Part shown: one piece after another, positions 1-22,854 of the stretch
Position numbering within the stretch: position 1 is the stretch's first letter
Layout of the letters: the number at the start of each line of letters is the position of its first letter
Origin: a virus
Virus record (IMG/VR): IMGVR_UViG_3300037796_000302
Location: 1-33,324 of that record
Strand: one strand, 5' to 3'
DNA: 33,324 nt
The notes under the pieces: generated by a model
Databases searched by the model: none
What the model saw: the letters and a program-made list of their open reading frames with translations, nothing else
What the model was told of the DNA's origin: nothing
Position numbers and translations under genes: made by a program

Positions 1-324
1 TGTAATCTCTTCATATATTTTTTTAGTTTCAACATTATTATCATTGGGCTGGGGTTTCTTTGTCGTATATAATATTTCAGGTTTTTTTGATATTATTTCT
101 TCGAGACTTTTTTCTGTTTTTTCATTTGCTTCATCTCTTATTTTGAAATTTCTTAACTGTTTTCTCCATTCAAAAACTTCTTGTAAATTTTTTATTTCAA
201 TATCAGCTAATTGTGACCAATCTGTTGACTGAAGATGATGGCGTTTTCTTGCTTTCAAAGATGTTATAAAATCTTTTTTTTGTTTTTCAGTTTTACTGGT
301 TTTTATATTTCTAATTTTTTGCAT
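1..324 (-). CDS. Tail-assembly-chaperone-like protein, C-terminus cut by window edge
   Basis: The frame opens with ATG at 324 and runs off the left edge without a stop, so at least 108 residues are present. After a basic start comes a segment around residues 25-60 with the pattern R-x3-L-x2-TDW-x-QLAD ... EW-RKQLR. This is the signature I associate with phage tail-assembly chaperone / fibre-assembly proteins (the Phage_tail_APC type, 'DWxxLxD ... WxxyRqaLR'). The rest is Lys/Glu-rich and probably helical. It is the last gene seen in the fibre cluster and lies 21 bases after the preceding fibre gene, which fits a helper for folding or attaching those fibres. Family assignment is from motif memory only. 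The missing end could change the picture. Confidence 0.55.
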   Translation of the reverse strand, partial: MQKIRNIKTSKTEKQKKDFITSLKARKRHHLQSTDWSQLADIEIKNLQEVFEWRKQLRNFKIRDEANEKTEKSLEEIISKKPEILYTTKKPQPNDNNVETKKIYEEIT

Positions 325-345
325 AAGTTAAAATTATAACAATTT

Positions 346-1932
346 TTAATTTGTTAACTCCCAAGAAACTTCTACAGAAGCACTTGTTGACTCACCTGTT
401 ACATCATCTGAAATATCAAACGATACAATGGCATTATGGAAATTACTTGGACAACTGCTTGTAGTTGTGCCTGAGTAATTAACAGTGGCACCTGAAGACG
501 TAATATTAACACTTATACTTCCACATAGACTGACACCACTAGACGTACATCCAGTATTTGTAATTGTATAACTACCCGATCCTCCACTTACAGACAACGT
601 TCCGCTCAATGATGGTATAGTATATGGATCATTTCCTACCACACAAACTGTAGCATAATTATCATCATTCGACGACGCCTGTAAAGGTGGTAGCGAACTT
701 GGTGTAGGTGTTGGAGGAGGTGTTGAATCCGGTGATGACGTTGGTGTAGGTGTTGGAGGAGGTGTTGAATCCGGTGATGACGTTGGTGTAGGTGTTGGAG
801 GTGTATCACCAAGCTGTATATGATTAGTTCTAAATGTAAAATTGGATGATGCCGTATTTGATAGTGAATCTGTTACAGTAACTTGGCCATATCCAGTAAC
901 ACTCAAATCAGGAACTGTGCGTGTTCTTGAAAGTGTTGGCGTTGCTGTAGTAGAGTCAGTGATGTTAAACGAAGCTCCTCCCGTATATACCCAATTATAT
1001 GTGTAAGGTGGAGTGCCGCCACTTACACTATAATGAAATCCGCTAGAGAGATCAAGTGTTGCTATACATAGACCAGTATCAGCAATACAGGATGCTTCAA
1101 ATGGATCAAATGTTGTAATCACTAAATCTGAAGCGCCTGAATTAGATGGTGTTGGTGTTGGTGTTGGTGTGTTAGAAGCATTCGGCGTTGGTGTAGGTGT
1201 GGGTGTAGGTGTATCTGGTGCTCCCGCTGAAGACGTTGGTGTAGGTGTTGGAGTTTGTGTAGGCGGTGGATCAGGAGTTATTAATGTGCCTGTATTATTG
1301 TTATCTTTCAAGCCTACTATAAGATAGTTGGCCACACCCGCTGTTCTAAATCCTTGTCCTGAATAAGTATATTCCATTGTAACATTTGCCATATCATCTG
1401 TACGACATTCCATTTCATCTATTACATCTAATTGGTTAAAAGGAGAGACAATCCAGCTACATTCTTCATATGGAAAAGTATAACCGGATTCTGAAACTGG
1501 TTGTGGTATTTGCTCACCATCTACAATTTGACCCCAATTAGCGGCTACTTCTTGTCCCAATACTTCAATAGGGTGCCATTCACCATCATAAAACACATAT
1601 GGTCTTCCGCCAACTTCTGGTCTATCATCGCTTATATTAAACCATACTTGACCTTCTAAAGGCTTTCCTGTTGATAACAATGAATCACCATTTATTTCAT
1701 CATCTTCAATAGATATTATTTGACTATAGTCTGGGGTTCCTTGAATTGAAGGATCTTCGGGTGCTGCAAAATTTTCTAATAGATGTACAAAGTTTTCATT
1801 TAAATCTCGGCCATATCTTAAACGAGTAAACCCGAATAAGGTAATATCAACTAGATCAGAAATTTCTTCCTTTTCGCTGACGGTTACAATTGGTAAATTT
1901 ATATCAGTAAATTCTAGTCGATAGTCGGCCAT
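346..1932 (-). CDS. Fibre-like virion protein with Thr-Pro linkers and two Ig-like domains
   Basis: The protein has 528 residues in four parts. Residues 1-215 are a domain shared with three neighbouring genes. It includes 'YGRDLNENFVHLLENFA', a 'GQVWFN ... YDGEW' hairpin motif, '[15 protein letters not shown]', 'FPYEECSW' and the closing 'ANYLIVG-x-NNN'. Next is a Pro/Thr linker, then a SprB/PKD-like Ig domain with 'SGGTPPYTYNW'. A second linker carries a 14-residue repeat (PTPTSSPDSTPPPT), followed by a C-terminal Ig-like domain ('GGSGSYTI ... SFDISDDVTGE'). N-domain, flexible stalk and Ig head is a plausible fibre or adhesin layout, but no receptor specificity can be read. It is the only paralogue with two Ig domains. 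It starts 3 bases after the 58-residue ORF and probably shares its late promoter. Confidence 0.7.
   Translation of the reverse strand: MADYRLEFTDINLPIVTVSEKEEISDLVDITLFGFTRLRYGRDLNENFVHLLENFAAPEDPSIQGTPDYSQIISIEDDEINGDSLLSTGKPLEGQVWFNISDDRPEVGGRPYVFYDGEWHPIEVLGQEVAANWGQIVDGEQIPQPVSESGYTFPYEECSWIVSPFNQLDVIDEMECRTDDMANVTMEYTYSGQGFRTAGVANYLIVGLKDNNNTGTLITPDPPPTQTPTPTPTSSAGAPDTPTPTPTPTPNASNTPTPTPTPSNSGASDLVITTFDPFEASCIADTGLCIATLDLSSGFHYSVSGGTPPYTYNWVYTGGASFNITDSTTATPTLSRTRTVPDLSVTGYGQVTVTDSLSNTASSNFTFRTNHIQLGDTPPTPTPTSSPDSTPPPTPTPTSSPDSTPPPTPTPSSLPPLQASSNDDNYATVCVVGNDPYTIPSLSGTLSVSGGSGSYTITNTGCTSSGVSLCGSISVNITSSGATVNYSGTTTSSCPSNFHNAIVSFDISDDVTGESTSASVEVSWELTN
670..805 (-). repeat. 42-bp tandem repeat in fibre linker
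   Basis: Two almost identical 42-base units, plus partial flanking copies, encode the 14-residue repeat PTPTSSPDSTPPPT inside the fibre gene. The unit is a multiple of three, so copy-number changes would keep the frame. Confidence 0.8.
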
Positions 1933-1935
1933 GTT

Positions 1936-2112
1936 TTATCTCACCCGTTCTTCTATTTCAAAATCATCTAGCTTTTTTCCAATTATTTCTGGAGAATATT
2001 CATTATCATCAATTTCATAAATTCTCAATCCCTTTTCAGAGCATATTTCTTCACTCGGTTTCCCTGTCGAACTTGCCGTTATTATTCTATCGGTATTAAC
2101 TAATATATACAT
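1936..2112 (-). CDS. Small hypothetical protein, 58 residues
   Basis: ATG at 2112, TAA at 1936-1938. The protein begins MYILVNTDRI, is acidic towards the end and contains 'EEICSEKGLRIYEI'. An AAGGAT ribosome-binding site lies just upstream, and a late-promoter box (AATAAATA, 2139-2146) sits 26 bases before the start. Both argue that it is real and that it heads the transcript for the fibre gene beginning 3 bases after its stop. I do not recognise the family. A small beta-rich virion or fibre-accessory protein is possible, but that rests only on position. Confidence 0.7.
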   Translation of the reverse strand: MYILVNTDRIITASSTGKPSEEICSEKGLRIYEIDDNEYSPEIIGKKLDDFEIEERVR

Positions 2113-2138
2113 AACTTATCCTTGATGTAATATCTCCT

Positions 2139-2146
2139 ATTTATTA
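2139..2146 (-). promoter_or_regulatory. Late promoter box AATAAATA
   Basis: Minus-strand AATAAATA, 26 bases before the 58-residue ORF. It matches the T4-type late box (N)ATAAATA and overlaps the stop region of the next upstream gene. Confidence 0.65.
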
Positions 2147-2752
2147 ATAAACTGAAGTACCTAAATTATTATTTCTCTGTATTCCAATAATAAGATAATT
2201 TGCAATCCCTTCGATTTGTCCAAATGTTGAATTATTATATGTCATGGTAACTGTACTATCTACGGGATCACTATAACAGTTTACAGAAGTAAATCCAATT
2301 GCATAGCTAAAGGGCGCTACTGACCATATGCATTCTTCATAACTAAAATTATATCCTTCTGGAGATGTGGGTAATGGTAATTGCTCTCCATGTCTTATTT
2401 GACCCCAGTTAGCTGCATATTGCTGCCCCTTTTCTCCATAAGGAATCCACAAATCATTTTCAGCGTCATAAGAATATAAACGTTTATTGGTTTTATTAAA
2501 CCATAATTGACCTTCTACTGGATTTGACAGACGACTTTTTGACAGTGCATCATTTGGAAGGTCTTGATCAACATTTGATGATTCAACAGCAAAGTTTTCT
2601 AAAAGGTGTAATAAATTTTCATTGACATCTTTTCCCCATTCCAAACGAATTCTGCCGGGAAATTTAATACTATAGTCTTCATTAATACCAGTTTCTTCAA
2701 CTTCTATTGGCTGTTTTGAAGCATCGGTAAAATTTATATTATATGTAGTCAT
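2144..2752 (-). CDS. Fibre-like paralogue, N-terminal domain only
   Basis: The 202 residues correspond to the shared N-terminal domain of the fibre paralogues and nothing else: 'WGKDVNENLLHLLENFA', 'GQLWFNKTNKRLYSYD', 'AANWGQIRHGEQLPLP', 'FSYEECIWSVAP' and 'ANYLIIGIQRNNNLGTSVY' followed by the stop. The other paralogues enter their Thr-Pro stalk right after this NNNLG point, so the gene ends exactly at a domain boundary. It has its own late promoter (2778-2785). It could be a short fibre, a capping subunit or a partner of the separately encoded C-domain gene just upstream. A truncated relic is less likely because the reading frame and promoter are intact. Confidence 0.7.
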   Translation of the reverse strand: MTTYNINFTDASKQPIEVEETGINEDYSIKFPGRIRLEWGKDVNENLLHLLENFAVESSNVDQDLPNDALSKSRLSNPVEGQLWFNKTNKRLYSYDAENDLWIPYGEKGQQYAANWGQIRHGEQLPLPTSPEGYNFSYEECIWSVAPFSYAIGFTSVNCYSDPVDSTVTMTYNNSTFGQIEGIANYLIIGIQRNNNLGTSVY

Positions 2753-2777
2753 TTATAATCTTACTTTCAATCTTAGA

Positions 2778-2785
2778 TATTTATT
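2778..2785 (-). promoter_or_regulatory. Late promoter box AATAAATA
   Basis: Minus-strand AATAAATA, 25 bases before the start of the 202-residue N-domain protein. Spacing matches the other late boxes in the window. Confidence 0.65.
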
Positions 2786-2806
2786 CAAAATTTCATTTTC
2801 ACTAAA

Positions 2807-3292
2807 TTATACAATTTCCCAAAGTATGGTCAATCCTTCAAAAGCAACATCTCCAGTCACATTATCAACTATACGAAACGAAACTACAGCATCATGATAT
2901 CCACTTTCTAATGGACAATTCTCATATACTTTTTCGGGAAATTTAATCATTGCATTATCAGAACCTGTTTCTACAATTATATCTTCACAGATAGAAGTTC
3001 CCTGTGAATGGCAATTCTCAAATGATATAGTATAATCACCTGAACCACCATTTACTACAAATGAAGATTGAAGTTCCGGGATTGCTACTGAACCACCGGT
3101 GCAAGTAGATATAAAAGATGAATTGCTTCTATCTACTGTTGTCATTAAATTATTAGATGATGGTGTTGGTGTTGGGCTGGGATTAGGCTCAGAGGGTGAG
3201 GGTGAAGGTGGTGATTCAGAATCATCCGAAGAGCGTAAAACCGCAACTAATATCATAATAGCAATTATGACTAAAACTATTAATATATCCAT
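2807..3292 (-). CDS. Membrane-anchored Ig-like (fibre C-domain) protein
   Basis: 161 residues. Residues 3-20 form one uninterrupted hydrophobic segment (MDILIVLVIIAIMILVAVL), which is a signal anchor or a poorly charged signal peptide. Then come a Ser/Asp/Pro/Thr stalk (about 21-48) and a C-terminal Ig-like domain (about 60-161). That domain shares 'GGSGDYTI', two Cys flanking it, 'YHDAVVSFRIVDNVTGD' and a final 'W-E' with the C-domain of the 528-residue fibre. It therefore carries the fibre head on a membrane anchor instead of the virion-docking N-domain. A strong AAAGGAGAT ribosome-binding site precedes the ATG, 17 bases after the upstream fibre gene. A role at the cell envelope (exclusion, decoy or assembly) is inference. 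It could also be an accessory virion protein. Confidence 0.65.
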   Translation of the reverse strand: MDILIVLVIIAIMILVAVLRSSDDSESPPSPSPSEPNPSPTPTPSSNNLMTTVDRSNSSFISTCTGGSVAIPELQSSFVVNGGSGDYTISFENCHSQGTSICEDIIVETGSDNAMIKFPEKVYENCPLESGYHDAVVSFRIVDNVTGDVAFEGLTILWEIV

Positions 3293-3309
3293 TTTTATCT
3301 CCTTTTAAA

Positions 3310-4665
3310 TTATTGTATTTCTCCTATGCAATTTATATCTTGTGTTCTAGAACAAGTTATCGTATCTGTTGCAACTTCACCTGTTTCATTATCAGTTATA
3401 GTTACAGTAAATGTAGCCGTTATTGTGGCACTACCACTCCAACTTTGCTGTGTTCCACCCGAATTACCTGTGTAACTCAATATAGCCTGTGAATTTGTCG
3501 TTCCTGATGAGCCACAGGAAGCAGTTCCATCAACCACACTGCCAGTTGAACTTCCTGATGGATTGCTGCATGTAACTTGTGAAGTATAATTTCCTGATCC
3601 ACCATTAACATTAAATGAAGGTGAACCCACATTAATGTCATTATTATATTCTACGTTACAAACAGTTGGGAACAGCGGTGCTGGGTCTCCCAAACAACTT
3701 CCAAAGGAAACCGATAGCGGCTGTAATGGGCTATTAGATGGCGTGGGTGTTGGTGTGGGCGTATTTGTTGGTGTAGGTGTAGGTGTAGCCGTTGCTGTAG
3801 CCGTTGCTGTAGCCGTTGCCGTTGAAGTAGGTGTGGGTGGTGGTGGTGCTCCCTCAGAAGTAGACGGTGTAGGTGTAGCGGTATTTGTCGGCGTTGGTGT
3901 AGGCGTGGTTTCCTCGCTGCTTGTAGGTGTAGGTGTGGGTGTTGGCGAACCGCCGATTGGGCTTGATGGTGTGGGTGTAGGTGTCGGAGAAGGTTGATTA
4001 GTAGGTGTAACAGATGCTGTTGGAGTGGGTGTCACATCAATAGGTTCCCTCTGTACACCAAGATTATTGTTTCCTCTAATACCAATTATTTGATAATTTG
4101 CAACCCCTGAAGTAAGAGTGCCACTGCCGCTCTCCTGAAATTGAAAAGTTACGTTTCCTTCTGAATCAGTATAACAACGCATATAATCTATTTCTGCTCC
4201 ATAATTTGATGGAGCCACAACCCAACTACATTCTTCATATGGAAACACATAACCAGTTATATCACTAACAGGGCGTGGTATTTGTTCACCGTGGGAAATA
4301 GTTCCCGAATTACCTGCAACATCTCCAATTTGTTTTAAAGGTTTCCACAATAAGCCGGTAAAAAAGTAAATTCTTTGATTTGTTGTATTATACCAGAATT
4401 GTCCTGCTGTTGGTTTCGATAATACATTCTTTGTAGTATTTTTAGGGTTAGGATTGCCGGGATTATCAGGATCTTCTGGAGATGCAAAATTTTCTAATAT
4501 AAATAAAGCATTTTCATTAAAAACTTCACCATACTCTTCTCTTCTCTTACCTATAAGGGTAATATCTAGACTCTCATCATCTAGTTGTTTTCTCAAAACA
4601 ACAATACTGTTAACATTTTCATTTGTTTTTCTTATTTCATAAGAAGAGTCTTGACACTGAGCCAT
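3310..4665 (-). CDS. Fibre-like virion protein with Thr-Pro/Ala-Thr linker and Ig-like C-domain
   Basis: 451 residues. The N-domain (about 1-206: '[17 protein letters not shown]', 'GQFWYNTTNQRIYFF', 'GNSGTISHGEQIPRP', '[12 protein letters not shown]', '[17 protein letters not shown]') is followed by a long low-complexity stalk (about 210-320) of PTPTPT runs and an AT-dipeptide run encoded by repeated 12-base units. The C-terminal domain (about 325-451) carries 'NGGSGNYTS' and 'TFTVTITDNETGEVATD' and is richer in Cys than in the sister genes. Its N-domain is very close to that of the 468-residue paralogue upstream, which suggests a recent duplication, whereas the C-domains differ more. It has its own late promoter (4692-4699). 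Probably a tail-fibre or decoration protein. Confidence 0.7.
   Translation of the reverse strand: MAQCQDSSYEIRKTNENVNSIVVLRKQLDDESLDITLIGKRREEYGEVFNENALFILENFASPEDPDNPGNPNPKNTTKNVLSKPTAGQFWYNTTNQRIYFFTGLLWKPLKQIGDVAGNSGTISHGEQIPRPVSDITGYVFPYEECSWVVAPSNYGAEIDYMRCYTDSEGNVTFQFQESGSGTLTSGVANYQIIGIRGNNNLGVQREPIDVTPTPTASVTPTNQPSPTPTPTPSSPIGGSPTPTPTPTSSEETTPTPTPTNTATPTPSTSEGAPPPPTPTSTATATATATATATPTPTPTNTPTPTPTPSNSPLQPLSVSFGSCLGDPAPLFPTVCNVEYNNDINVGSPSFNVNGGSGNYTSQVTCSNPSGSSTGSVVDGTASCGSSGTTNSQAILSYTGNSGGTQQSWSGSATITATFTVTITDNETGEVATDTITCSRTQDINCIGEIQ
3735..4035 (-). repeat. Thr-Pro / Ala-Thr low-complexity stalk DNA
   Basis: Runs of GGTGTAGGTGTN-type hexamers encode TPTPTP, and a 12-base unit (GCCGTTGCTGTA on the plus strand) in three near copies encodes ATAT. 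The in-frame repeats are likely to change length by slippage. Confidence 0.75.
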
Positions 4666-4691
4666 TTATTCCACCTAATATCTATTGTGTA

Positions 4692-4699
4692 TATTTATA
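4692..4699 (-). promoter_or_regulatory. Late promoter box TATAAATA
   Basis: Perfect T4 late consensus TATAAATA on the minus strand, 26 bases before the 451-residue fibre gene. Confidence 0.75.
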
Positions 4700-4704
4700 A
4701 GCAT

Positions 4705-6111
4705 TTATGCGAATATTTCATATTGTAATGTAACACTAACATTAACTGTCTCTCCAGTTACAGTATCAGAAACTGTAACTGTTTCTGTCGAATATGTTTG
4801 AATTCCCGTATTGGAACATATCTGTGTAGTATTCCAACTGAAAGAAGATGGCGATATTGAATAATTGCCGGAACCTCCACTAGCATTGACAGTACTACTA
4901 GAAACAGACCATGAGAATGAAAAATTAACTGAATTTCCTGCTTGTCCAAAGCAGCTATCAGAATCTGTTATAGTGGCATTAGAAGCCGAAAGTGGAGGAT
5001 ACGTCGGTGATGGTGTTGGTGTATTCGACGGTGATGGTGCCGGTGTATTCGACGGTGATGGTGCCGGTGTATTCGACGGTGATGGTGCCGGTGTATTCGA
5101 CGGTGATGGTGCCGGTGTATTCGACGGTGATGGTGCCGGTACCGCTGTAGCAGTTGCTGTATTAGTTGGTGTAGGTGTTGGTATTACGACTTCAGAATTT
5201 GATGGTGTAGGTGTTGGTGTAGGTGTTGCACTTTCACTAACCGATGGTGTAGGTGAATTAGACGGATCAGGTGTATTAGATGGTGTTGGTGTAACGCTAC
5301 TTGTCGGTGTAATTGATGGCGTCGGTGTCACACTACTCGTTGGTGTAGGTGTTGGTGTACTTGTAGGTGTAGGAGTAGGTGTTGGTGTACTTGTAGGTGT
5401 AGGAGTAGGTGTTGGTGTACTTGTAGGTGTAGGAGTAGGTGTTGGTGTAACGCTACTTGTAGGTGTAGGTGTAGGTGTAGGTGGCATTGGAGTAATTCTA
5501 TTCCCAAGATTATTATTATCTCTTATGCCAATTATTTGATAGTTTACAATACCTGAAGTATACGTTAATGATCCCGATTCTCGATATTCAAATGTTACAT
5601 TAGCAGAAGAATCGGTATAACAACGCATATAATCTATTTCTACTCCATAATTTGATGGAGCTACAACCCAACTGCATTCTTCATATGGAAACACATAACC
5701 TGTAATGTCACTAACAGGCTGAGGTATTTGTTCACCATCTGCTATTGTTCCAGAATTACCTGCAACATCTCCTATTTGTTGTAAAGGCTTCCAATTTGTC
5801 CCATCAAAGAAATATATGTGATGACTTGTACTATTATACCAAAATTGTCCGGTCGTGGGGTTTGATAAAACAGAATTTGTTGTAGCAGTAGTATCAGGGT
5901 TTCCAACATTACCAGAATCTTCTGGTGCTGCAAAATTTTCTAATATGAACAACAAATTTTCATTAAACGTTTCTCCATAGTTTTTTCGACGATCCCCCAC
6001 TAGACCAATATCCAAACTAGAAGTATTTAATTCATTTATGTCAACTTCTATAATTTCTTCATTAGAATTTGTTTTTCTTATTTGAAAAGGTACATCTTTA
6101 CAAAGAGACAT
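4705..6111 (-). CDS. Fibre-like virion protein with longest Thr-Pro minisatellite stalk
   Basis: 468 residues. The N-domain (about 1-207) has the same landmarks as its sisters ('[17 protein letters not shown]', '[15 protein letters not shown]', '[15 protein letters not shown]', '[12 protein letters not shown]', '[16 protein letters not shown]'). The stalk (about 210-385) contains three copies of the 10-residue [10 protein letters not shown] repeat and five copies of the 8-residue PAPSPSNT repeat. The C-domain (about 386-468) is Ig-like with 'GGSGNYSI' and '[16 protein letters not shown]'. It lies first in the fibre array behind a GATAAATA late box. Tail-fibre or head-fibre are equally possible; it has no catalytic motif and no signal peptide. 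Confidence 0.7.
5006..5142 (-). repeat. 24-bp minisatellite, about five copies
   Basis: The plus-strand unit GACGGTGATGGTGCCGGTGTATTC is repeated head to tail about five times with almost no differences. It encodes the 8-residue PAPSPSNT repeat. The nucleotide near-identity shows recent expansion or homogenisation. Confidence 0.85.
5341..5452 (-). repeat. 30-bp minisatellite, three copies
   Basis: Three identical 30-base units encode [10 protein letters not shown] within the stalk of the 468-residue fibre. They are built from shorter GGTGTAGGTGTN subunits, which also flank them. Confidence 0.85.
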
Positions 6112-6189: not shown

Positions 6190-6888
6190 TTAAAGTCCCA
6201 TTTCTTTGATCATATTAAGAATGGATTTTCTTTTCTTTGGACGTTTTTTAAATATTTCATTCCACTTTTTAGGATTTGTATATTTTTGAATGTGTTCTCT
6301 GTCAGATGCAGATGCTCTTTTAATTAAAAAATCTTTAAACTTATCACTATTCAAAAAAAACCATGGTGATATTTTTCTACTTTTGACTAATTTAGAAACA
6401 TCATCAGAGTCTAATTCATCAAAAACTTCACTTACATCAATGTTTAAACCTTCAGCTAATGTATAAATCGTATCAACAGAAATTTCTATTTGTTTATTAA
6501 CTGGAATATACTCATCATAAATTTCCATAAAAGTTTCATAAGTTTTTAAGTTTGACCAATCTCTTGGCGATAACTTAAATTGATTACACACTTTAATATA
6601 AGTCTTTTTACTAGGAATGGAATGTTTTTTAGCAAATTCAATAAACCTTTGAAAAGCTTTATAATGTATTGAATGTATAAATGTATGTTCATCAACATAT
6701 TTTACACTGCGTCCGTTAGAGCGTAACCAGAACAAATATAGTTTATACATTCCCATTCCTGTGGGTGTTTTAGTTATATTGTCATAACGTTTTTTAAATT
6801 CACAACCAGATTCCAAATGCTTTTTAAGATTTTTCTCATTAACATATGTTTTTGAGCAAAAATTACATTGATTATAAATTGGAATCAT
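6190..6888 (-). CDS. Hypothetical protein with N-terminal C2HC zinc finger
   Basis: 232 residues. Residues 8-30 carry C-x2-C-x12-H-x4-C in a sequence with the look of a classical finger ('CNFCSKTY ... LKKHLESGC'). The remainder is helical and basic, with many aromatic residues ('KLYLFWLRSNGRSVKYVDEHTF') and a basic C-terminus (KKRPKKRKS). I do not recognise the family by function. A nucleic-acid-binding role is plausible from the finger and charge. The start overlaps the gp62 stop by ATGA, so the two are translationally coupled and it belongs to the clamp-loader operon. No early or late promoter is seen directly before it. Confidence 0.6.
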   Translation of the reverse strand: MIPIYNQCNFCSKTYVNEKNLKKHLESGCEFKKRYDNITKTPTGMGMYKLYLFWLRSNGRSVKYVDEHTFIHSIHYKAFQRFIEFAKKHSIPSKKTYIKVCNQFKLSPRDWSNLKTYETFMEIYDEYIPVNKQIEISVDTIYTLAEGLNIDVSEVFDELDSDDVSKLVKSRKISPWFFLNSDKFKDFLIKRASASDREHIQKYTNPKKWNEIFKKRPKKRKSILNMIKEMGL

Positions 6889-7313
6889 ATAGCTTTCTTT
6901 ATTTTATTTTTTAATTTATCTTCATAACCCATTTGCTCTAAAATTTCGTGAAGGTCTTCTTTTTCTAGTTCTTCTAAAGCACGCTCCGCATCTCCAGCAG
7001 TGATATTATAATACTCAGATACCATCGATATCAAATCTTTATTGAACTTTTTTGGTCTTTTAATCCATGAGTATCTTTTTTGAGTCCCATCAGAGCAACA
7101 ACATGCAAGATAAAATAATAATTTTTGTTCTTTATGCAATGCAAAAATCATAGGATTTAATAATTCATTTACCAACAAGACCCTTTTAGCATCCGTAGTA
7201 TAAGAATACCATTTGTTTATCATGAATGGTGAAAATGAATCCATGAATTCAGGATCATTCGCAAGTTTTATTTCCTGATTATCTATTCTTTTAAGCTGTT
7301 CAAATAAATCCAT
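6885..7313 (-). CDS. 62: Clamp loader small subunit, gp62-like
   Basis: 142 residues, shorter than T4 gp62 (187). In T4, gp62 joins four gp44 ATPase subunits to load the gp45 sliding clamp. Visible features that fit are 'SPFMINKWYSYTTDAKRVLLVNELL' near the N-terminus, an aromatic/Cys-rich helix and 'RYSWIKRPKK' in the middle, and a C-terminal 'ISMVSEYYN ... AERALEELEKEDL' segment. This is the layout of gp62 in marine T4-like phages. Position supports the call: it follows gp44 with only one small gene between. It overlaps the upstream stop by one base (TAATG) and the downstream start by four (ATGA). There are no ATPase motifs, as expected for this subunit. Confidence 0.75.
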   Translation of the reverse strand: MDLFEQLKRIDNQEIKLANDPEFMDSFSPFMINKWYSYTTDAKRVLLVNELLNPMIFALHKEQKLLFYLACCCSDGTQKRYSWIKRPKKFNKDLISMVSEYYNITAGDAERALEELEKEDLHEILEQMGYEDKLKNKIKKAI

Positions 7314-7618
7314 TATCTTTTTAATTTAATGATTTTATCACAAAATTTGCATTCTACGTGCGTTCCCTTGTGTACAAGGTAATCTTTTGGATGTACACAT
7401 TCCTGAACCATTGTTTGGCGCAACTCTGCAATTTTATCCATAATCGGCTGCTTCTCTTCATACAGTTCAATAATCTTATTTTGAATTGGCTCTAATTCTT
7501 CAATTAGAGCATCGAGTTTCTTTTTCTTTCTTCTCCATGCTAGTTTAGCATCATTTTGACTATAACCTGCAACCGTGTCAAGGTCTTTTTTTACATCTTT
7601 TTCTGTTAAACGTTTCAT
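7313..7618 (-). CDS. Coiled-coil protein with C-terminal Cys/His cluster
   Basis: 101 residues. Lys/Glu-rich helix from about 25 to 75 (coiled coil likely), then 'CVHPKDYLVHKGTHVECKFCDK', a possible zinc ribbon with ligands among C-H ... H ... C-x2-C. The ATG follows the gp44 stop directly (TAAATG), and the stop overlaps the gp62 start, so it is translated as part of the 44-x-62 unit. The family is not known to me. T4 lacks a gene at this place between 44 and 62, so this is an accessory of the clamp-loader operon. A DNA or clamp-loader-associated function is only inferred. Confidence 0.6.
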   Translation of the reverse strand: MKRLTEKDVKKDLDTVAGYSQNDAKLAWRRKKKKLDALIEELEPIQNKIIELYEEKQPIMDKIAELRQTMVQECVHPKDYLVHKGTHVECKFCDKIIKLKR

Positions 7619-8566
7619 TTAAATCTCCGAAAGTTTAATTAAACAACTTGCAAAATTTATTTCTTGATCAGGATGTATGGCATGACGATACATGTAATCT
7701 GATATAACAACAATTCCTTTTTTCCATTTTATACTCTTGTCTTTAAACTTTTCAATTTCATCAAGATAATCATAAAGAAAACGGTAAACTTCTATAAGTT
7801 CATCATCCGTAAAATTCTCAGCAGCAACTTGACGGGCTTTTATCCAATTATCTTCAGCTAATAAATCTAGTATATCGAGCTTATACGCCAATTGCTCATC
7901 TTCTATTGAAGTTTCAACAAGTTTATTACCGTCTTTAGCATTAGATAAAGCTGTAATAATTTTCCTTAAATCATCCGAATATAAGTCAACAATGTTCTTT
8001 AATATATCAATATTGTTGTTATCTTCGATATCAATACCTTCTTGGTCCAGAATATCAATACAATATTCCATCATTTTTATTCTTTTCAATTTACTGAACT
8101 TAAGTTCATCAAATCTTGATCTTAACTGTTTATCAAATTTGTTTATATGATTTGTTGTAAAAATTACCCGAGCATTATCAGAGTATTTTTCAAGAGTTCC
8201 CTTTAGTGCTTTTTGAGCGTCAGGAGATAGCTTTTCAGCTTCATCTACAAACACGAGTTTAATATCACCCATCGGGACAGAGCTAATATGATTGATTAAT
8301 TTTGTTCTTATATTATCAATGCCACCTTGAAGAGAGCCATCTATTTCTAAAACATCTGAACTCTGATATTCTTCTGGTACAAGTTCATTAATCAAAATTT
8401 TAGCCAAAGTCGTTTTGCCGGTTCCTCTAGGACCGTGCAAAAGAATATGATTAATACTTTTAGTTTTTATCCAATTTTCTATTATGCGCCTATGATCGTC
8501 ATTTTGGAAAATAAACGTGTCAAGGCTGTATGGGCGATATTTTTGCCACCAGATTTGTTTTGGCAT
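7619..8566 (-). CDS. 44: Clamp loader large subunit, gp44-like AAA+ ATPase
   Basis: 315 residues (T4 gp44 is 319). The AAA+ motifs are in order: 'WWQKYRP' entry at 6-12, Walker A GPRGTGKT at 45-52, Walker B VFVDEAEK at 105-112, sensor 'IFTTNH' near 135-140 and the trans-acting arginine motif SRF at 150-152 (SRC in most clamp loaders). A helical collar follows. With gp62 it opens and loads the sliding clamp for the replicative polymerase. The transcript is probably driven by a sigma70-like promoter at 8598-8626, and a GAGGA ribosome-binding site lies before the ATG. This is a confident assignment. Only the third residue of the SRC motif is changed (Phe for Cys). Confidence 0.95.
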   Translation of the reverse strand: MPKQIWWQKYRPYSLDTFIFQNDDHRRIIENWIKTKSINHILLHGPRGTGKTTLAKILINELVPEEYQSSDVLEIDGSLQGGIDNIRTKLINHISSVPMGDIKLVFVDEAEKLSPDAQKALKGTLEKYSDNARVIFTTNHINKFDKQLRSRFDELKFSKLKRIKMMEYCIDILDQEGIDIEDNNNIDILKNIVDLYSDDLRKIITALSNAKDGNKLVETSIEDEQLAYKLDILDLLAEDNWIKARQVAAENFTDDELIEVYRFLYDYLDEIEKFKDKSIKWKKGIVVISDYMYRHAIHPDQEINFASCLIKLSEI

Positions 8567-17456: not shown

Positions 17457-20357
17457 CTACGCGATAATAATAGGCATTGCCATATCATCTATATTTTTAG
17501 GATCATCTGTAAATTCTTCATCCCACTCATTTTGTTGATTATCTTGTCCCTGAACATTATAAATTTGATCATATGCATATGGATTGTGATCTGCTAATTC
17601 TTGTAAAATACGCATAAGTATTAATAAAGCCGCAATACAATCATCTGTTGAGCCTGTTTCAGCTTTATATGTAGAACCTTGTCTAGTATATCCCTTGAAT
17701 TCTCGGAGCAATACTTTAGAGTAAAATTTATAAGTTCTATTCTCAATCATATGCTTCAATTTCATACATGCACCACGTTTAGTGGTTTCTGACATTGAAA
17801 TTCCCAAACGTTTACTATTACTGTCAGAAATGAGCATTGCAGTTTCAGGGGGTTTTTCATCATATTCATATAATGCAAGTATACTGGCACCTAATCCATT
17901 ATTTTCAACTGAAAAATAAACTTCAGATGAATTTTGTTGTAAAAACAATAATATATTCTTCAACCTAGAGTACAAAAATTTTTCATTCGTATTATTTGAT
18001 CTAAATTCCAGAACTTGCTCTAGTGTGGGAAACTCCGTAACTTCAATTACTGAATAATCATTGCCGTTACCACTAGCAACATCAACCGAAACAATATAAG
18101 CAAGAGATTTATTAATCTTTTTGAAAAACTCTAAATCGCCTATTGTAAATGCTATAGGTGGTTCTTCTCCAAATTCTTTATCCATTTCATTTTCTATTTG
18201 ATTCAAAATAAAACTATCAATTAATGTTATATCAGATGACAGAAATTGACACTCGAACTCTTGTAGCCAACGTCTTTTCCCAAGTGCCCCGATTTGTTGT
18301 TTTTTAAATTCTTCATCTCTTTCCGGTGGAGCATACCATGGAACGTGCATCGCTTTAAAATCATTTATTCCATTAACTGCACCTCTCCATAGTTCAGCAA
18401 ATAAATTAGAGTTACCGTTTGGGGTCGAGGATATGATACATGACCCTCCGGTATTTGAACCCATAAACCCAGACTGTAAAAATGAATGAGAAGTGGGAAC
18501 AGTCAAGTCATATGTACGTTGTTGAAAAGAATTCTTGAGTTCTGTTATCTGAACCCATAATCCTCCGTCCAAGTATCCTTTCCAAAATTTTTCATATTTT
18601 TTCCATATTTCATGATTTTCTATTTTTATAATCTCCGACAATTTAACAAGCCATGTATGAGTAATCACTCGATTCGGATTTTTATCAACTACCTTATCCA
18701 ATCTAAGATTATATTTTTTTCTTAATATATTTCCATTTAATCCACTAAGCTTAACAATCTCTTTAATTGTTGGTTCTACTATTTTTGCCGGTATTGTGAA
18801 TTGTTTAAAATCATCCTGTCTTCTTATTTCTATTATTTCATTCAGTTTTTCTATTTTTCTTTTTATTTTAATAGGTATTAACTTTTTAAACTTATAATAT
18901 TGGGACAGAGGTATATTTAAAGAATATACATTTTTATATTTTTTTGTTAAATTTTTATTATTTGCTATAATACGTGGCTTAATATCCAAACTGTTTTTAG
19001 TATAGACTCTACTTATTAAACCCATATTCAAGAGTAGTAACTGTGTTTCTTTTATTAAACGTTTACTAGTGCTGGTTAAGTTTATGGATCGATCTGTAAC
19101 TGCTCCATCACCATCAAACAAACCAGCCAAATAATTACAAACTGTATTTTTATCAGATTCCATTATATATGATGGCGTTTTTTTATCATAACATTTAGCT
19201 TTTAAATCTACGCCCAAATTCTCATAATTTTCTACAAGTTCTCTCGAAAAACAATCTAGTTTATGTGGTTCATTTTTTCTTTTTAATGAAAATCGTCTAA
19301 TAAATTTTGAATTTAAAAATACATTTCTAAACTCATCATCCGTATTAGAAATTGTAATCCCATAAATATACTCACCGCGTTTGCATGACCATCCTTCAGC
19401 TATATACCCACCCAACATATAAGCTAAATCATCATCTAATGATTTATTTCCCCACATATTCATATCGCTATCAACTTTGATATAGTCGTTCAATGTTAAT
19501 TCAGATGTTTTCTTCATATACGGTGCTTCTTTTCCGGCCACCCAAAATTTATGATCTAGTGTAGCCTCAACTTCCATTCCTAGTTTATTCTTTATTTTTT
19601 TAGTATTTGAAGCGGGGCTAACATAGCCATGAGAAACCTTTTCTCTCCCTTCTAATCCCCACGTGTATAAATTGTTGTATTCAAAATACTCCCCATCTTT
19701 TTTATTTTTGCACAATGATTCAATAGTTTTTAAACCATTCTGCGTAAATAAAATCGTGTCACCCCGTAAACATGAAATAGTCGGCAAAATTGAAGTCCAA
19801 AACTCTTCCTGCACATTGGATTTTACAAAGGCGTACTCATCACAATACAATAGTGATATTGCATAACCGCGCCCAGAATCAGCAGATGTTGTTGTTGCTA
19901 TAATTCGAGAAGAGTTATCAAATTTACATTCATGTTTATTCCATGAATCTTCATCAATACCGGGCTTCAACCAATCTGGTAATTCTTCATAAGCATATTG
20001 TATTTTACCAATAATTTCTTTAGCATTATCACTTTTGTTAGAAACGACCATAACAGTAACATCTTCATTAAAAATTGCATACCATAAGAGATAAGCACAA
20101 ATCGTTTCAGTTTTACCAGTTTGGCGAGCAGACATAACGATTGAAAAACGATTTTGATCATATAAATCAATCATGTCTTCTTGATAATCATAGAGATTAA
20201 ATTTAATCTTACCCTTTTTAGGGTGCTTGATTTTTATATAGTTTTTAATAAAGTGTTTAGGGTCTCTGGCACACTTCATCAATTCCTGTACATCTTTTTG
20301 ACTATACTCTATTTCTTTATGAGCCTTTTTAAGGCGTGGATTGCGTCTTCTGCTCAT
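17457..20357 (-). CDS. 17: Large terminase gp17 with in-frame intein
   Basis: The 966-residue precursor would give a 526-residue terminase after splicing (T4 gp17 610). The motor uses ATP to pump DNA into the head and cuts concatemers. N-extein: Walker A 'SARQTGKT' at 76-83 and Walker B 'LLYCDEYAF' with D173/E174. C-extein: the 'IISSTPNGN' coupling motif at 641-649, then the RNase H-like nuclease with D759 ('VSVDVASG'), E818 ('FSVENNG') and D905/D906 ('STDDCIAAL'). These match the order of the T4 D401-E458-D542 triad. The intein lies between residues 195 and 636, directly before the coupling motif, so unspliced protein should be inactive. It has a late box 24 bases upstream. gp16 is not adjacent but lies about 6 kb upstream. 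Confidence 0.93.
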   Translation of the reverse strand: MSRRRNPRLKKAHKEIEYSQKDVQELMKCARDPKHFIKNYIKIKHPKKGKIKFNLYDYQEDMIDLYDQNRFSIVMSARQTGKTETICAYLLWYAIFNEDVTVMVVSNKSDNAKEIIGKIQYAYEELPDWLKPGIDEDSWNKHECKFDNSSRIIATTTSADSGRGYAISLLYCDEYAFVKSNVQEEFWTSILPTISCLRGDTILFTQNGLKTIESLCKNKKDGEYFEYNNLYTWGLEGREKVSHGYVSPASNTKKIKNKLGMEVEATLDHKFWVAGKEAPYMKKTSELTLNDYIKVDSDMNMWGNKSLDDDLAYMLGGYIAEGWSCKRGEYIYGITISNTDDEFRNVFLNSKFIRRFSLKRKNEPHKLDCFSRELVENYENLGVDLKAKCYDKKTPSYIMESDKNTVCNYLAGLFDGDGAVTDRSINLTSTSKRLIKETQLLLLNMGLISRVYTKNSLDIKPRIIANNKNLTKKYKNVYSLNIPLSQYYKFKKLIPIKIKRKIEKLNEIIEIRRQDDFKQFTIPAKIVEPTIKEIVKLSGLNGNILRKKYNLRLDKVVDKNPNRVITHTWLVKLSEIIKIENHEIWKKYEKFWKGYLDGGLWVQITELKNSFQQRTYDLTVPTSHSFLQSGFMGSNTGGSCIISSTPNGNSNLFAELWRGAVNGINDFKAMHVPWYAPPERDEEFKKQQIGALGKRRWLQEFECQFLSSDITLIDSFILNQIENEMDKEFGEEPPIAFTIGDLEFFKKINKSLAYIVSVDVASGNGNDYSVIEVTEFPTLEQVLEFRSNNTNEKFLYSRLKNILLFLQQNSSEVYFSVENNGLGASILALYEYDEKPPETAMLISDSNSKRLGISMSETTKRGACMKLKHMIENRTYKFYSKVLLREFKGYTRQGSTYKAETGSTDDCIAALLILMRILQELADHNPYAYDQIYNVQGQDNQQNEWDEEFTDDPKNIDDMAMPIIIA
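18453..19772 (-). mobile_element. TerL intein with LAGLIDADG endonuclease
   Basis: Residues 196-635 of the gp17 precursor (440 residues). Block A starts at Cys196 ('CLRGDTILFT'). Block B is 'ATLDHKFWV' (T-x-D-H). Two LAGLIDADG motifs, 'LAYMLGGYIAEG' (311-322) and 'LAGLFDGDG' (410-418), retain acidic residues, so the homing endonuclease may be active. Block F is 'TYDLTVPTSHSFLQSG', and block G ends Gly-Ser-Asn635 before Thr636. The junction is PTIS|C ... N|TGGS. The usual penultimate His is Ser, a variant that needs another residue to assist Asn cyclisation. The intact motifs suggest a functional element. Confidence 0.93.
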
Positions 20358-20684: not shown

Positions 20685-20707
20685 GAAAGGAACTACAGGT
20701 GCCTTTC
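20685..20707 (-). other. tnpB 3'-end hairpin, candidate reRNA (omega RNA) end
   Basis: Minus-strand GAAAGG - 11-base loop containing the tnpB stop - CCTTTC. TnpB guide RNAs are known to overlap the 3' end of tnpB and finish at the element's right end, so this hairpin is a candidate scaffold element. The exact end of the element is not determined. Confidence 0.4.
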
Positions 20708-21814
20708 ATTTAATGTTTCCTTCCTAGAAATATTGATAGATGCATTTAAATCTGCATCATGTTCAAATGCACAATTCGTGCATTTGAACTTATCACCATT
20801 TCTATTAGAAGAATCAGTCCATCCGCATTCACTGCACTGCTGACTTGTGTAACTAGGCGAAACATGTCGAACAAGGACACCTTGTTCTTCACATTTCGAT
20901 TCCAGTTTGTCATACAATGCAGTGTAAGTCCAGTGACTTAACATGCGGTTTGTTTTCTTTCTTTTTCTTAAGTGCTGTATTTTTTCCAATTTCAATTCTT
21001 TCACGGAATCAAGATTCAATTGATTGATAGTCCAGTTGATATAATTTTTTCTGTGTTCTTGGGCTTTTTTAAAGTTTTTACTTCCTTTCTTCTTTCTTGA
21101 CAGTTTTTCAGTGATTGATTTTAAATCATGTCCGTGATTGCATTGAGAGCTTTGAAAACCATTGGAACAGGAAACAGCTTTGTTTAATCCAATATCAATT
21201 CCTAAAGTGACTCCACTTGTTTTTGTTTCAACTTCTGGCAAATCAAACATGAAAGTCATTTGCTTCTTGCTCAATCGAATTCCAGATTTTATTTCTCCCT
21301 TTTTAAGTAACCGATTAAAATGTTTGCTCTTTTTGAACGGAATTTGGATTTTCATTTTGTTTCCGATGGAACTAAATGTGATCCATCCATCAAAACTGGT
21401 CTCATTTTCTAAATCAATTTTAACAAAACGAGAATCTAATTCAGGACAAACATGATTAATATTTGGTTTTGTAGTTTTGGTTTTATCATAAATCTTCTGT
21501 AATTTCAATGCCCTATGATGATCTCCTTCTGATTTCAATTGATCGATCATGAACTTTCGTTGCCTTTGCTTCTGTTTTGTTCCGCGAACCACGCTACTTG
21601 CTTGTTTTGCAGCGCATTGAATCATTCGAGCAGATAACCATGTGTTGACTTGAGAAGTGATTTCTTTGGGGAGTAATTTTGGAATATCATTTTCTTCCCA
21701 AATCAAATCGATAATTTGTTTCATGACACTTCGGTATTCATCGACCATTAGATGTAATTGATTTTGTTTTTCTTTGTTAGAAAATTTGATTGATGACGTT
21801 GTTGATCTAATCAT
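20693..21814 (-). CDS. tnpB: TnpB, RNA-guided nuclease of IS607/IS605-type elements
   Basis: 373 residues, a usual length. RuvC-like residues are present in order: D207 ('TLGIDIGLNKA'), E277 ('ELKLEKIQHL') and D355 ('HDADLNASINI'). The zinc ribbon C327-x2-C330 ... C345-x2-C348 lies between the last two. The N-terminal part (about 1-130) is helical and basic ('RGTKQKQRQRKFM'). TnpB enzymes cut DNA guided by an RNA from the element's right end and help retain the element after excision. All catalytic positions are retained and there is no frameshift, so this copy could be active. It starts ATGATTAG over the tnpA stop. Confidence 0.93.
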   Translation of the reverse strand: MIRSTTSSIKFSNKEKQNQLHLMVDEYRSVMKQIIDLIWEENDIPKLLPKEITSQVNTWLSARMIQCAAKQASSVVRGTKQKQRQRKFMIDQLKSEGDHHRALKLQKIYDKTKTTKPNINHVCPELDSRFVKIDLENETSFDGWITFSSIGNKMKIQIPFKKSKHFNRLLKKGEIKSGIRLSKKQMTFMFDLPEVETKTSGVTLGIDIGLNKAVSCSNGFQSSQCNHGHDLKSITEKLSRKKKGSKNFKKAQEHRKNYINWTINQLNLDSVKELKLEKIQHLRKRKKTNRMLSHWTYTALYDKLESKCEEQGVLVRHVSPSYTSQQCSECGWTDSSNRNGDKFKCTNCAFEHDADLNASINISRKETLNERHL

Positions 21815-22367
21815 TTTTCATCTCTTTAATTAATTTTTCGGTTTTTCTTTTGCTTCTTCTTTTCCCGTATAATCGGGTGCAAAATGATGTTACCAAAGAA
21901 ACAAAATCTTGCATTAGATCAGATTCATCTTCATTTACATGATTTATAACTACAATTTCTCCATCAAATAGAGTGTCTATGTAAGCAAACCCGAAACGAG
22001 TTAATCGATCTTTATGCTCTATAATTATTCTAGTTGCCTTTTTATCTGACAATATTTTTTGTAATTTAGGTCTCTTGTCATTTAGACCTGATGCAGTTTC
22101 TTTTATGATTTCATGTACTTCCCAACCTCTGGCCGCGCAAAATTCACTTATACGTTTAGCTTGAGAATCTAGGTTGTTTTTATTTTCAGATGAACTCACC
22201 CTTGCATAGACAACATTGTGTTCTGGCTTTTCTTTAATTTCTGGCTCATCTACTACAATGGTACCGCTTGGTAGCTGTCTGGCATTTGGAACTTTATTTT
22301 GTTTAAACAGGCGGTGTGCTGACTGATATGTAATACTATTTTTCTTTGCCCATTGTGAAAGTTTCAT
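21807..22367 (-). CDS. tnpA: TnpA, IS607-type serine recombinase
   Basis: 186 residues. The N-terminal MerR-like helix-turn-helix ('KLSQWAKKNSITYQSAHRLFKQNKVP', about 2-28) precedes a small serine-recombinase domain. The catalytic motif is 'YARVSSSENKNNLDSQ', with the nucleophile around Ser58. Further motifs are 'ISEFCAARGWEV', 'IIEHKDRLTRFGF' (the Arg-rich active-site helix) and a basic C-terminus. HTH before the catalytic domain is typical of IS607 transposases. A TATAAATA late box lies 24 bases upstream, so the transposase may be made late in infection. Confidence 0.92.
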   Translation of the reverse strand: MKLSQWAKKNSITYQSAHRLFKQNKVPNARQLPSGTIVVDEPEIKEKPEHNVVYARVSSSENKNNLDSQAKRISEFCAARGWEVHEIIKETASGLNDKRPKLQKILSDKKATRIIIEHKDRLTRFGFAYIDTLFDGEIVVINHVNEDESDLMQDFVSLVTSFCTRLYGKRRSKRKTEKLIKEMKND

Positions 22368-22444: not shown

Positions 22445-22726
22445 TTATATAATACCCCTTCCAGCGTTGCCATTCACGGTACTCGTGAATATTTTAGTAC
22501 CGTTATCGAATTCAATACTATTTTTATTAAATGCAATAACTTTTGGTTTTAGAAAATGTGGTAATTTGTCATATGCATGTTGTAATATTTGTATATTATC
22601 TGTTGCAATTTCTAACTTATTTGCGCACAGCATTATATTGGAATATGAGTGAAAAATGGAATACCATAATATATAAGCTAGGGTTACAGTACTAGTGCCG
22701 ATTTGTCGTGAAGCTAACTTGTCCAT
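22445..22726 (-). pseudogene. Remnant of a second large-terminase ATPase domain
   Basis: About 92 residues align by eye with the ATPase domain of large terminases: 'SRQIGTSTVTLAYILWYSIF', 'AYDKLPHFLKPKV', 'FNKNSIEFDNGTKI' and 'NAGRGI'. It ends before Walker B. The Walker A Lys is lost (G-T-S instead of G-K-T), the N-terminal part is missing, and no start of its own is credible: the ATG at 22726 lies inside another gene. 'NK-SIE-DNG' is closer to T4 gp17 ('WNKGSIELDNGS') than to this phage's gp17, which suggests a different terminase lineage rather than a local duplication. Decayed and not functional as a terminase. Confidence 0.7.
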
Positions 22727-22854
22727 AAACTATCGCAGCGATATGGTCTAGCTGGAACCCATTTACCATCTATTTCAGTAAAATTTTCTTTTAAATGTTG
22801 TACTAATGCTTCAACTGTGAATATATTATTCCCGTATTCTTTTTTATTGCTCAT
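22714..22854 (-). pseudogene. Truncated small 'KWVPARP' gene
   Basis: 46 residues: 'MSNKKEYGNNIFTVEALVQHL' followed by 'DGKWVPARPYRCDSLWTS' and TAG. In other phages I recall small proteins with '-WVPARP-xx-SLW' that continue with a Lys/Trp-rich helix, next to the phosphoesterase gene as here. This one breaks right after SLW, where terminase-like sequence begins, so it looks cut by recombination. The ATG overlaps the phosphoesterase stop by 11 bases. It may still be translated as a short peptide. Confidence 0.5.

Follow-up and report, generated by a model that had tools for sequence, protein, structure and literature searches.

The window analysed here is the whole 33,324-base virus record IMGVR_UViG_3300037796_000302, which carries an array of five genes at 346-6111, on the minus strand, designated A to E in reading order. 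Gene A (4705-6111, 468 residues) encodes an N-domain (5500-6111), a Thr/Pro-rich stalk (~4954-5514), and an immunoglobulin-like (Ig-like) tip (4708-4965). Gene B (3310-4665, 451 residues) has the same plan, with an N-domain at 4054-4665, a stalk at ~3697-4059, and an Ig-like tip at 3313-3702. Gene C (2807-3292, 161 residues) has no N-domain; it begins with a hydrophobic helix (3236-3292; residues 1-19, mean hydropathy 3.3), followed by a short stalk (~3122-3235) and an Ig-like tip (2810-3133). Gene D (2144-2752, 202 residues) is headless, as it encodes an N-domain only (2156-2752). Gene E (346-1932, 528 residues) encodes an N-domain (1285-1932), a stalk (~1102-1305), a middle Ig-like domain (820-1119), a second stalk (~658-819), and a terminal Ig-like domain (349-663).

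The sequence-only reading of this locus had described five adjacent genes built from shared parts (N-domain, Thr/Pro stalk, and Ig-like end), three of them full, one reduced to the N-domain, and one to the C-domain. This layout was recovered: A, B, and E are full, D is headless, and C carries a tip only. The count of four N-domains (A, B, D, and E) also held. The count of four Ig-like ends did not, since gene E contains two Ig-like domains, bringing the total in the array to five. The hydrophobic helix of gene C had been overlooked, and the N-domains of the 451- and 468-residue proteins, taken to be nearly the same, are only 70% identical at the protein level and 73% at the DNA level, with a patch of 89% DNA identity at residues 137-170.

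Scored with a profile in which they are themselves included, the N-domains of A, B, D, and E (about 200 residues each) reached 255-293 bits. PHROG 15511, which is an independent family profile, unlike the former profile built with genes of the window, matched the same four genes far beyond chance (E values of 3.9e-112 for A, 1.2e-104 for B, 3.8e-71 for D, and 1.6e-84 for E). Gene C did not match PHROG 15511. The five Ig-like domains of the window are called one type because of a shared motif: together with seven domains from relatives, they align around C (Cys), GGxG/GGxP, and D (Asp) (alignment A4). The family is loose, and the middle and terminal domains of gene E compare at the level of shuffled sequences (z 0.4).

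Relatives were collected from phage genomes and metagenomic virus contigs. Gene A, used as a tblastn query against 50,697 phage records at E 1e-5, matched three of them, XacN1, RAS14, and CM1, the latter two being identical over the 28.6 kb compared. With an XacN1 N-domain as the query at E 0.01, 21 phage records matched, 18 of them only in part, including Atu_ph07, GAP32, and cyanophages. A profile scan of IMG/VR (best 80 of 275 matching stretches) yielded 74 loci. The full N-domain was present in 22 of these (L019 to L040, on 21 contigs); among the matches listed, the remaining loci matched mainly over the first ~110 residues of the N-domain. A second scan (best 80 of 323 matching stretches) added L098, L099, and L100, which stand outside the N-domain tree and the pair counts. 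The loci of XacN1 and RAS14 are designated L016 and L017, and W denotes the window (W_1, W_2, W_4, and W_TM for genes A, B, E, and C, respectively). One scan of bacterial genome contigs found no relative, a search of the PDB with the N-domain profile gave no match, and a literature search for RAS14 retrieved no paper carrying that name. Many of the loci L041 to L092 contain rows of three to four paralogues of ~500-750 residues sharing mainly the first ~105 residues of the N-domain. Arrays of this first module therefore seem to extend beyond the present phage group.

In a maximum-likelihood tree of 66 N-domains, A and B are sisters (support 100/95) and group with the first genes of relatives (slot 1). 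D falls in slot 2 with L024_3 and L025_2 (99/91), and E falls in slot 3 with L025_3 and L024_2 (100/99). Based on their grouping, A and B look like a duplication absent from the nearest relatives compared. Gene order is variable: L024 presents slot 1, slot 3, a membrane-type gene, and slot 2, whereas L025 and the window present slot 1, a membrane-type gene, slot 2, and slot 3. The topology suggests that the N-domains are old slots inherited vertically.

The histories of the tips and of the N-domains are not fully congruent. The closest same-slot pairs were defined by an N-domain path of up to 0.5 (n = 27), excluding duplicates from near-identical contigs (L018, L019, L021, L022, and L037), headless genes, and N-domains of less than 180 residues. 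Tip similarity is kept in 24 of the 27; the exceptions are L024_3/L025_2 (N-domains 78% identical), L020_1/L023_1 (71%), and W_1/W_2 (70%). At paths of 0.5-0.8, tips match in 12 of 29 pairs. The full table comprises 56 pairs up to a path of 0.8 (tips match in 36 and fail to match in 20), which are not independent; one unmatched pair, L016_2/L039_2, is uninformative as L039 ends inside the tip, and slot-3 matches often rest on the middle domain, which masks terminal differences. Comparison with shuffled sequences of 33 pairs, chosen by hand, placed several same-slot tips at chance: L024_3/L025_2 (z 0.2), L020_1/L023_1 (z 0.8), L028_3/L030_3 (z 0.3), L016_4/L017_4 (z -0.8), L016_5/L017_5 (z 0.7), and the terminal domains of W_4/L024_2 (z -0.1). 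Kinship was detected across slots for L024_3 and the slot-1 tip of L026_1 (z 14.1), for L025_2 and the terminal domain of W_4 (z 13.6), for the tip of gene C and the terminal domain of gene E (W_TM/W_4, z 24.2), and for L017_7/L017_2 (z 16.1).

Four replaced pairs (L024_3/L025_2, L020_1/L023_1, L028_3/L030_3, and E/L024_2) were tracked residue by residue. Identity is high up to the end of the N-domain and drops across the stalk, the exact point of the drop being masked by the low complexity of the stalk. In E/L024_2, identity is lower but continues through the middle domain; since this domain is common to both proteins (z 20.0) and the terminal domain is not, the change occurred at or beyond the second stalk.

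We consider it probable that these genes form an array of paralogues encoding virion fibres (adhesins), of the kind present in the jumbo myophages XacN1 and RAS14, with N-part slots transmitted vertically and tips exchanged, moved, or dropped at the stalk. Each protein would comprise a conserved N-part, made of an attachment region, a small trimerisation-like module, and a lectin-like jellyroll (the latter from a weak fold match), followed by an extended Thr/Pro-rich stalk of variable length and by one or two exchangeable tips, which are Ig-like in the window. Over evolutionary time, the tips would be replaced by unrelated tips or copied between paralogues; others would reside in a gene encoding a membrane-type helix or in a free-standing gene, or be lost, with the boundary lying in the stalk. 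Ordinary phage recombination or illegitimate joining at the stalk DNA would make these exchanges. A conserved N-part combined with an apparently exchangeable C-part, as found here, is a trait of tail fibres and receptor-binding proteins. The array, its slots, the discordance of the tips, the recurring headless state, and the insertions or deletions of stalk repeats are established by the sequences, and stalk-bounded exchange of tips is concluded to be real but slow.

Structure models were used to assess the fold of the two ends. The N-domain model had a mean predicted local distance difference test score (pLDDT) of 83.0 and a predicted template modelling score (pTM) of 0.51. Residues 115-196 matched the R2 pyocin foot (Z 5.0, root-mean-square deviation 2.5 over 68 residues), discoidin (Z 4.8), a snail agglutinin (Z 4.5), and AP22 gp53 (Z 4.4), together with LKA1 gp49 and a coral lectin (Z 5.0-4.4 over the list), all of these values being weak. 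PMC6363177 lists these folds as one lectin-like jellyroll. The matches suggest, although weakly, that the N-domain ends in such a jellyroll, a call based on the agreement of the match list as a set and not on single Z values. Residues 61-113 gave weak matches to a region of the CBA120 tailspike (Z 4.6) and to the major tropism determinant (Z ~3). Among viral proteins, the folds matched by the N-domain model included tail collar, gp10-like, and gp53-like fibre proteins. An Ig-like sandwich is the apparent fold of the tip model (pLDDT 86.8), many of the matched rows being Ig, cadherin, and titin domains (Z <6). With either model, Foldseek returned no PDB match reaching E 0.001, and none of the Ig, SprB, and PKD profiles scored above cut-off with the tips (best SprB, E 0.023, 14.8 bits versus 28).

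The products of the array would be fibres on the virion, and the tips would bind host surfaces. The first part of the N-domain is found in GAP32_225 (E 3.4e-10 with a profile against the open reading frames of three loci; E 9e-3 by tblastn in the phage collection). The homologue of GAP32_225 in phage CBB, CBB_231, is listed in PMC5259590 among the structural proteins detected by mass spectrometry (12 peptides, 53.3% coverage). Alternatively, the proteins might not be receptor-binding fibres, but decoration or head-fibre proteins whose Ig-like domains contact cell surfaces loosely, as proposed for such domains by Fraser et al. 2006 (cited in PMC5259590). We regard this as unlikely, although it is the most serious of the alternatives. 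It accords with the Ig-like fold of the tip model, with a weakly matching family, PHROG 14394, that is labelled head and packaging, and with electron microscopy of the wide-host-range jumbo phage XacN1, which revealed no tail fibres; its authors found no tail-fibre homologue in the genome (PMC5852040, in the text available, the main part of which does not contain 'ORF23'). Against this stand the location of the GAP32 and CBB proteins related to the N-domain's first part, in a tail-gene block near a sheath stabiliser, and the gene that follows the array, which resembles a tail-assembly chaperone gene. Only its cut-off start lies in the window (1-324, minus strand), and this piece did not match Phage_tail_APC (PF16778); the counterparts in three of three relatives scanned matched at 26.4 (L020), 19.9 (L016), and 16.3 bits (L019), for a cut-off of 26.6. 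The preference for a fibre array is tempered by the lack of fibres on XacN1 images, by a best PF16778 match that is just under the cut-off, and by reliance on a partial homologue, CBB_231, for presence in virions. Given the XacN1 images, short whiskers, head decorations, and poorly stained structures are also conceivable forms of the products.

Plain divergence was also considered, in which the tips evolve faster than the N-domains and the apparent swaps are orthologous tips that have become unrecognisable. Several observations favour it or limit the case for exchange. In most pairs, conservation is lower in the tips than in the N-domains, and tip matches thin with N-domain distance, from 24/27 to 12/29, the latter proportion fitting divergence as well as exchange. 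The tips of A and B form one weak family (z 3.8), and their difference may therefore reflect divergence rather than a swap. Tips with few or no detectable kin (L020_1, best z 5.2; L017_4; L017_5) could have arisen by fast divergence or by import. The slot-3 tip of L030 is kin to a tip of L040 (z 31.9) and not to that of L028, and its N-domain is nearer to those of L028, L029, and L032; however, the L028/L030 branch has weak support (87/53) and L030 and L040 could be sisters, so this case may be a single old replacement. Divergence nevertheless leaves other results unexplained. Other pairs at the same N-domain distance as the exceptions keep 31-88% tip identity. The tips of L024_3, L025_2, and window C resemble those of their slot partner or positional counterpart no more than shuffled sequences would, yet have kin in other slots at z 13-24. 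In XacN1, the tips of ORF234 and ORF233 are 74% identical, more than their N-parts (61%). In the N-domain tree, each of the two genes groups with a RAS14 gene (92/90 and 100/86), and the tips of these partners are unrelated to theirs (z -0.8 and 0.7). We therefore judge divergence alone to be improbable and retain exchange at the stalk.

Tips without an N-domain are either free-standing or located behind a hydrophobic helix. The make-up and place of gene C are matched by L025 10700-11221 and L019/L024 12594-13049, and these counterparts lie just upstream of the slot-2 gene in L025 and in L024 (near-identical to L019). The tip of gene C, which is kin to that of gene E, is not kin to those of its positional counterparts in L025 (z -0.8) and L019 (z -1.2), which are kin to each other (z 14.9). 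The possibility that C and D are the halves of one split gene was rejected, since C is the upstream gene of the two and carries a hydrophobic helix of its own; it is also excluded by L024 and L025, in which a membrane-type gene stands beside a slot-2 gene with its own tip. Nine of the 66 N-domains are headless, implying at least seven changes on the N-domain tree, a count in which gain and loss are indistinguishable. As read from gene lists, 8 of 18 distinct complete-looking arrays contain exactly one headless gene and 10 contain none (one array was read across two loci and one is cut in its last gene); L099, counted among the latter, has two genes with only a 57-residue tail. These results indicate that the headless fibre gene is a recurrent state and not an annotation error.

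A more elaborate scheme, which we consider doubtful, would have one pool of tips in the genome circulating among stalked slots, a membrane-anchored gene, and a free-standing gene, with the stalks as joints and the single headless fibre as an acceptor slot or a mini-fibre with lectin-like binding. If so, the membrane-anchored tip would be a cell-side copy of a phage adhesin, for example masking receptors after infection.

Other tip ends were observed in the relatives. The N-less last genes of XacN1 (ORF231, L016 21828-22685) and RAS14 (L017 21386-21886) share a common tip (z 41.7). XacN1 ORF231 continues into a Hint-like end related to the stalked fibre end of L038 gene 1 (z 61.5), the tips ahead of this end being weakly alike (z 6.7). 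The RAS14 gene terminates in a cysteine-rich piece related to the end of RAS14 gene 2 (z 16.1). A Hint/intein-like domain with a C-terminal HN motif ends some tips in L028, L029, L030, and L032 (genes 1 and 2), L038 (gene 1), L098 (gene 1), and L016 (22248-22682). A profile of this end matched four PDB chains at E <=1 (best 0.0046), one of which is labelled as an intein; we take two others to be inteins as well, and the fourth not to be one. L098 gene 1 gave a sub-threshold Hint_2 match (E 0.016), and the four other pieces scanned gave none. The Hint-like tip ends are possibly self-cleaving fibre ends.

Exchange could be programmed or incidental. The stalks of the window contain tandem repeats at 699-801 (42 bp x 2.5, 100%), 5005-5140 (24 bp x 5.7, 98%), and 5345-5479 (30 bp x 4.5, 92%). 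Exact DNA matches between the stalks of A, B, E, and C are of 14-19 nt, and the longest exact matches between A and B (27, 26, and 20 nt) are in the N-domain and not in the stalk. With exact matches not exceeding 19 nt, recombination at the stalk is possible but unproven. Stalk-like stretches also have matches in numerous further open frames of these genomes, perhaps from Thr/Pro composition alone. Near-identical contigs differ by in-frame insertions or deletions of stalk units, of 48 bp (L019/L024) and 60 bp (L020/L022), with the reservation that short-read assembly may mislead in stalk repeats. They have identical tips in the compared gene pairs (n = 6, one headless), and also display gaps of 12 and 2 bp away from the array and scattered single-nucleotide polymorphisms (SNPs). 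At L019/L024 8405-8515, at the end of the clamp loader gene, 29 SNPs were present within 111 bp, a patch that may be an assembly chimaera or a recombination tract.

Machinery for exchange was searched for in the record itself and in those of 12 relatives, many of which are fragments. Reverse transcriptase (RVT_1) was found neither in the window nor in the 12 relatives' records, leading to rejection of a diversity-generating retroelement. Resolvase was absent from the same 12 records, and the window's single resolvase gene (21807-22367), which overlaps the beginning of a TnpB-like gene, lies ~16 kb away from the array; site-specific inversion of the Gin or shufflon type was rejected, as no serine recombinase is linked to the array. 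Three tip queries, one of them the Ig-like profile A4, matched in 8, 1, and 2 of the 12 records, only inside the array, and a silent store of tips was thus not found. We favour a slow exchange, presumably effected by general phage recombination or by illegitimate joining across stalks that act as tolerant joints, over a dedicated system because near-identical contigs keep their tips, no machinery was found, and the tip queries match only inside the array. A dedicated fast system, with stalk repeats as programmed hinges shuffling tips within the phage population, could draw on the near-perfect tandem repeats, the 14-19 nt matches, the dispersed stalk-like stretches, and the kinship of the C and E tips, but is highly improbable given the retention of tips in near-identical contigs and in 24 of the 27 closest pairs, the absence of RVT_1, Resolvase, and a silent store within the scope just given, and the location of the longest A/B matches.

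These results bear on what the sequence-only reading had proposed for the mechanism. Comparison of N-domain and tip histories revealed the expected incongruence, although most of the closest pairs keep their tips, and the stalk-to-head swaps sought in relatives were found in few pairs, with identity falling across the stalk. Modular, stalk-bounded exchange is thereby supported, whereas stalk repeats as hinges are unproven and the proposal of a built-in host-range diversification system is not supported.

Upstream of the array on the minus strand lies a 232-residue gene with a sub-threshold zinc-finger match (6190-6888), which marks the edge of the array in relatives too. The conserved flank continues with genes at 6885-7313 and 7313-7618 and a clamp loader gene (7619-8566). 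Among the matches listed, the order clamp loader, two small genes, zinc-finger-like gene, array, TDWTQL gene, and MDIDID gene is common to the window, XacN1, RAS14, and the loci that reach far enough. Within the array, a 58-residue open reading frame (ORF; 1936-2112, minus strand) matched no Pfam family above cut-off. Of the 24 related loci listed, 18 have a similar short ORF immediately upstream of an N-domain gene; L021 adds one more, the next gene being cut off there, and in XacN1 and RAS14 a resembling ORF stands after the array.

Elsewhere in the window, a serine-resolvase gene stands beside a TnpB/Cas12f-like gene (20693-22367), a pair that we take to be IS607-like, and a 93-residue N-terminal terminase fragment adjoins it (22445-22726). 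The full terminase large subunit gene (17457-20357) is interrupted by an intein with a LAGLIDADG domain. An 896-residue protein (22844-25534) has, by eye, an intein-like stretch in its second half and no Pfam match at 0.001. A head-tail adaptor-like protein (PHROG 211; 30543-33227) contains several copies of a GxLWYD...W module that is also present in the fibre N-domain. An Rfam scan of the window gave nothing at gathering score.

The distal tail-fibre locus of T-even phages, reportedly described by Tetart, Desplats and Krisch in 1998 (cited in PMC3797505), is said to have an exchangeable adhesin end with exchanges bounded by conserved or repetitive stretches. The array resembles that locus in its conserved N-part, exchangeable end, and exchange boundaries. 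It differs by having three to six paralogues in slots, Thr/Pro stalks, headless copies, and tips in N-less genes; its exchanges are deduced from sequence and not from bench work, and at its boundaries lie repetitive stalks, whose exact matches between genes reach at most 19 nt.

Domain mosaicism of receptor-binding proteins, with a near-identical N-terminus and a non-homologous C-terminal domain, is similar (Smug et al. 2023, PMC10684548); the 'recent' class defined there requires at least 70% identity of the common part, and the section examined does not name the array family or its slots. A literature search on Thr/Pro linkers and domain swapping found no relevant paper. PHROG 15511 is matched by all four N-domain proteins, and far more strongly by the five XacN1 paralogues scanned; it groups paralogues with differing tips under no functional label. 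The fibre foot of R-pyocins and AP22 is matched, in the model, by N-domain residues 115-196 through the same fold set (Z <=5, weak; PMC6363177, in part); here, in contrast, the jellyroll-like part would lie within the N-terminal half, with a stalk and more domains after it. GAP32_225 and CBB_231 of Rak2-like phages match positions 15-62 of the N-domain profile, but a single gene stands at that place, and the lectin-like half and Thr/Pro stalk were not detected in it. The comparison provides candidate adsorption proteins for XacN1, reported to lack a tail-fibre homologue (PMC5852040, in the text available). Tip exchange is a known route of phage evolution, of which this locus offers an unusually clear natural series: inner parts, stalks, and tips can be tracked separately, making stalk-bounded exchange and tip loss testable.

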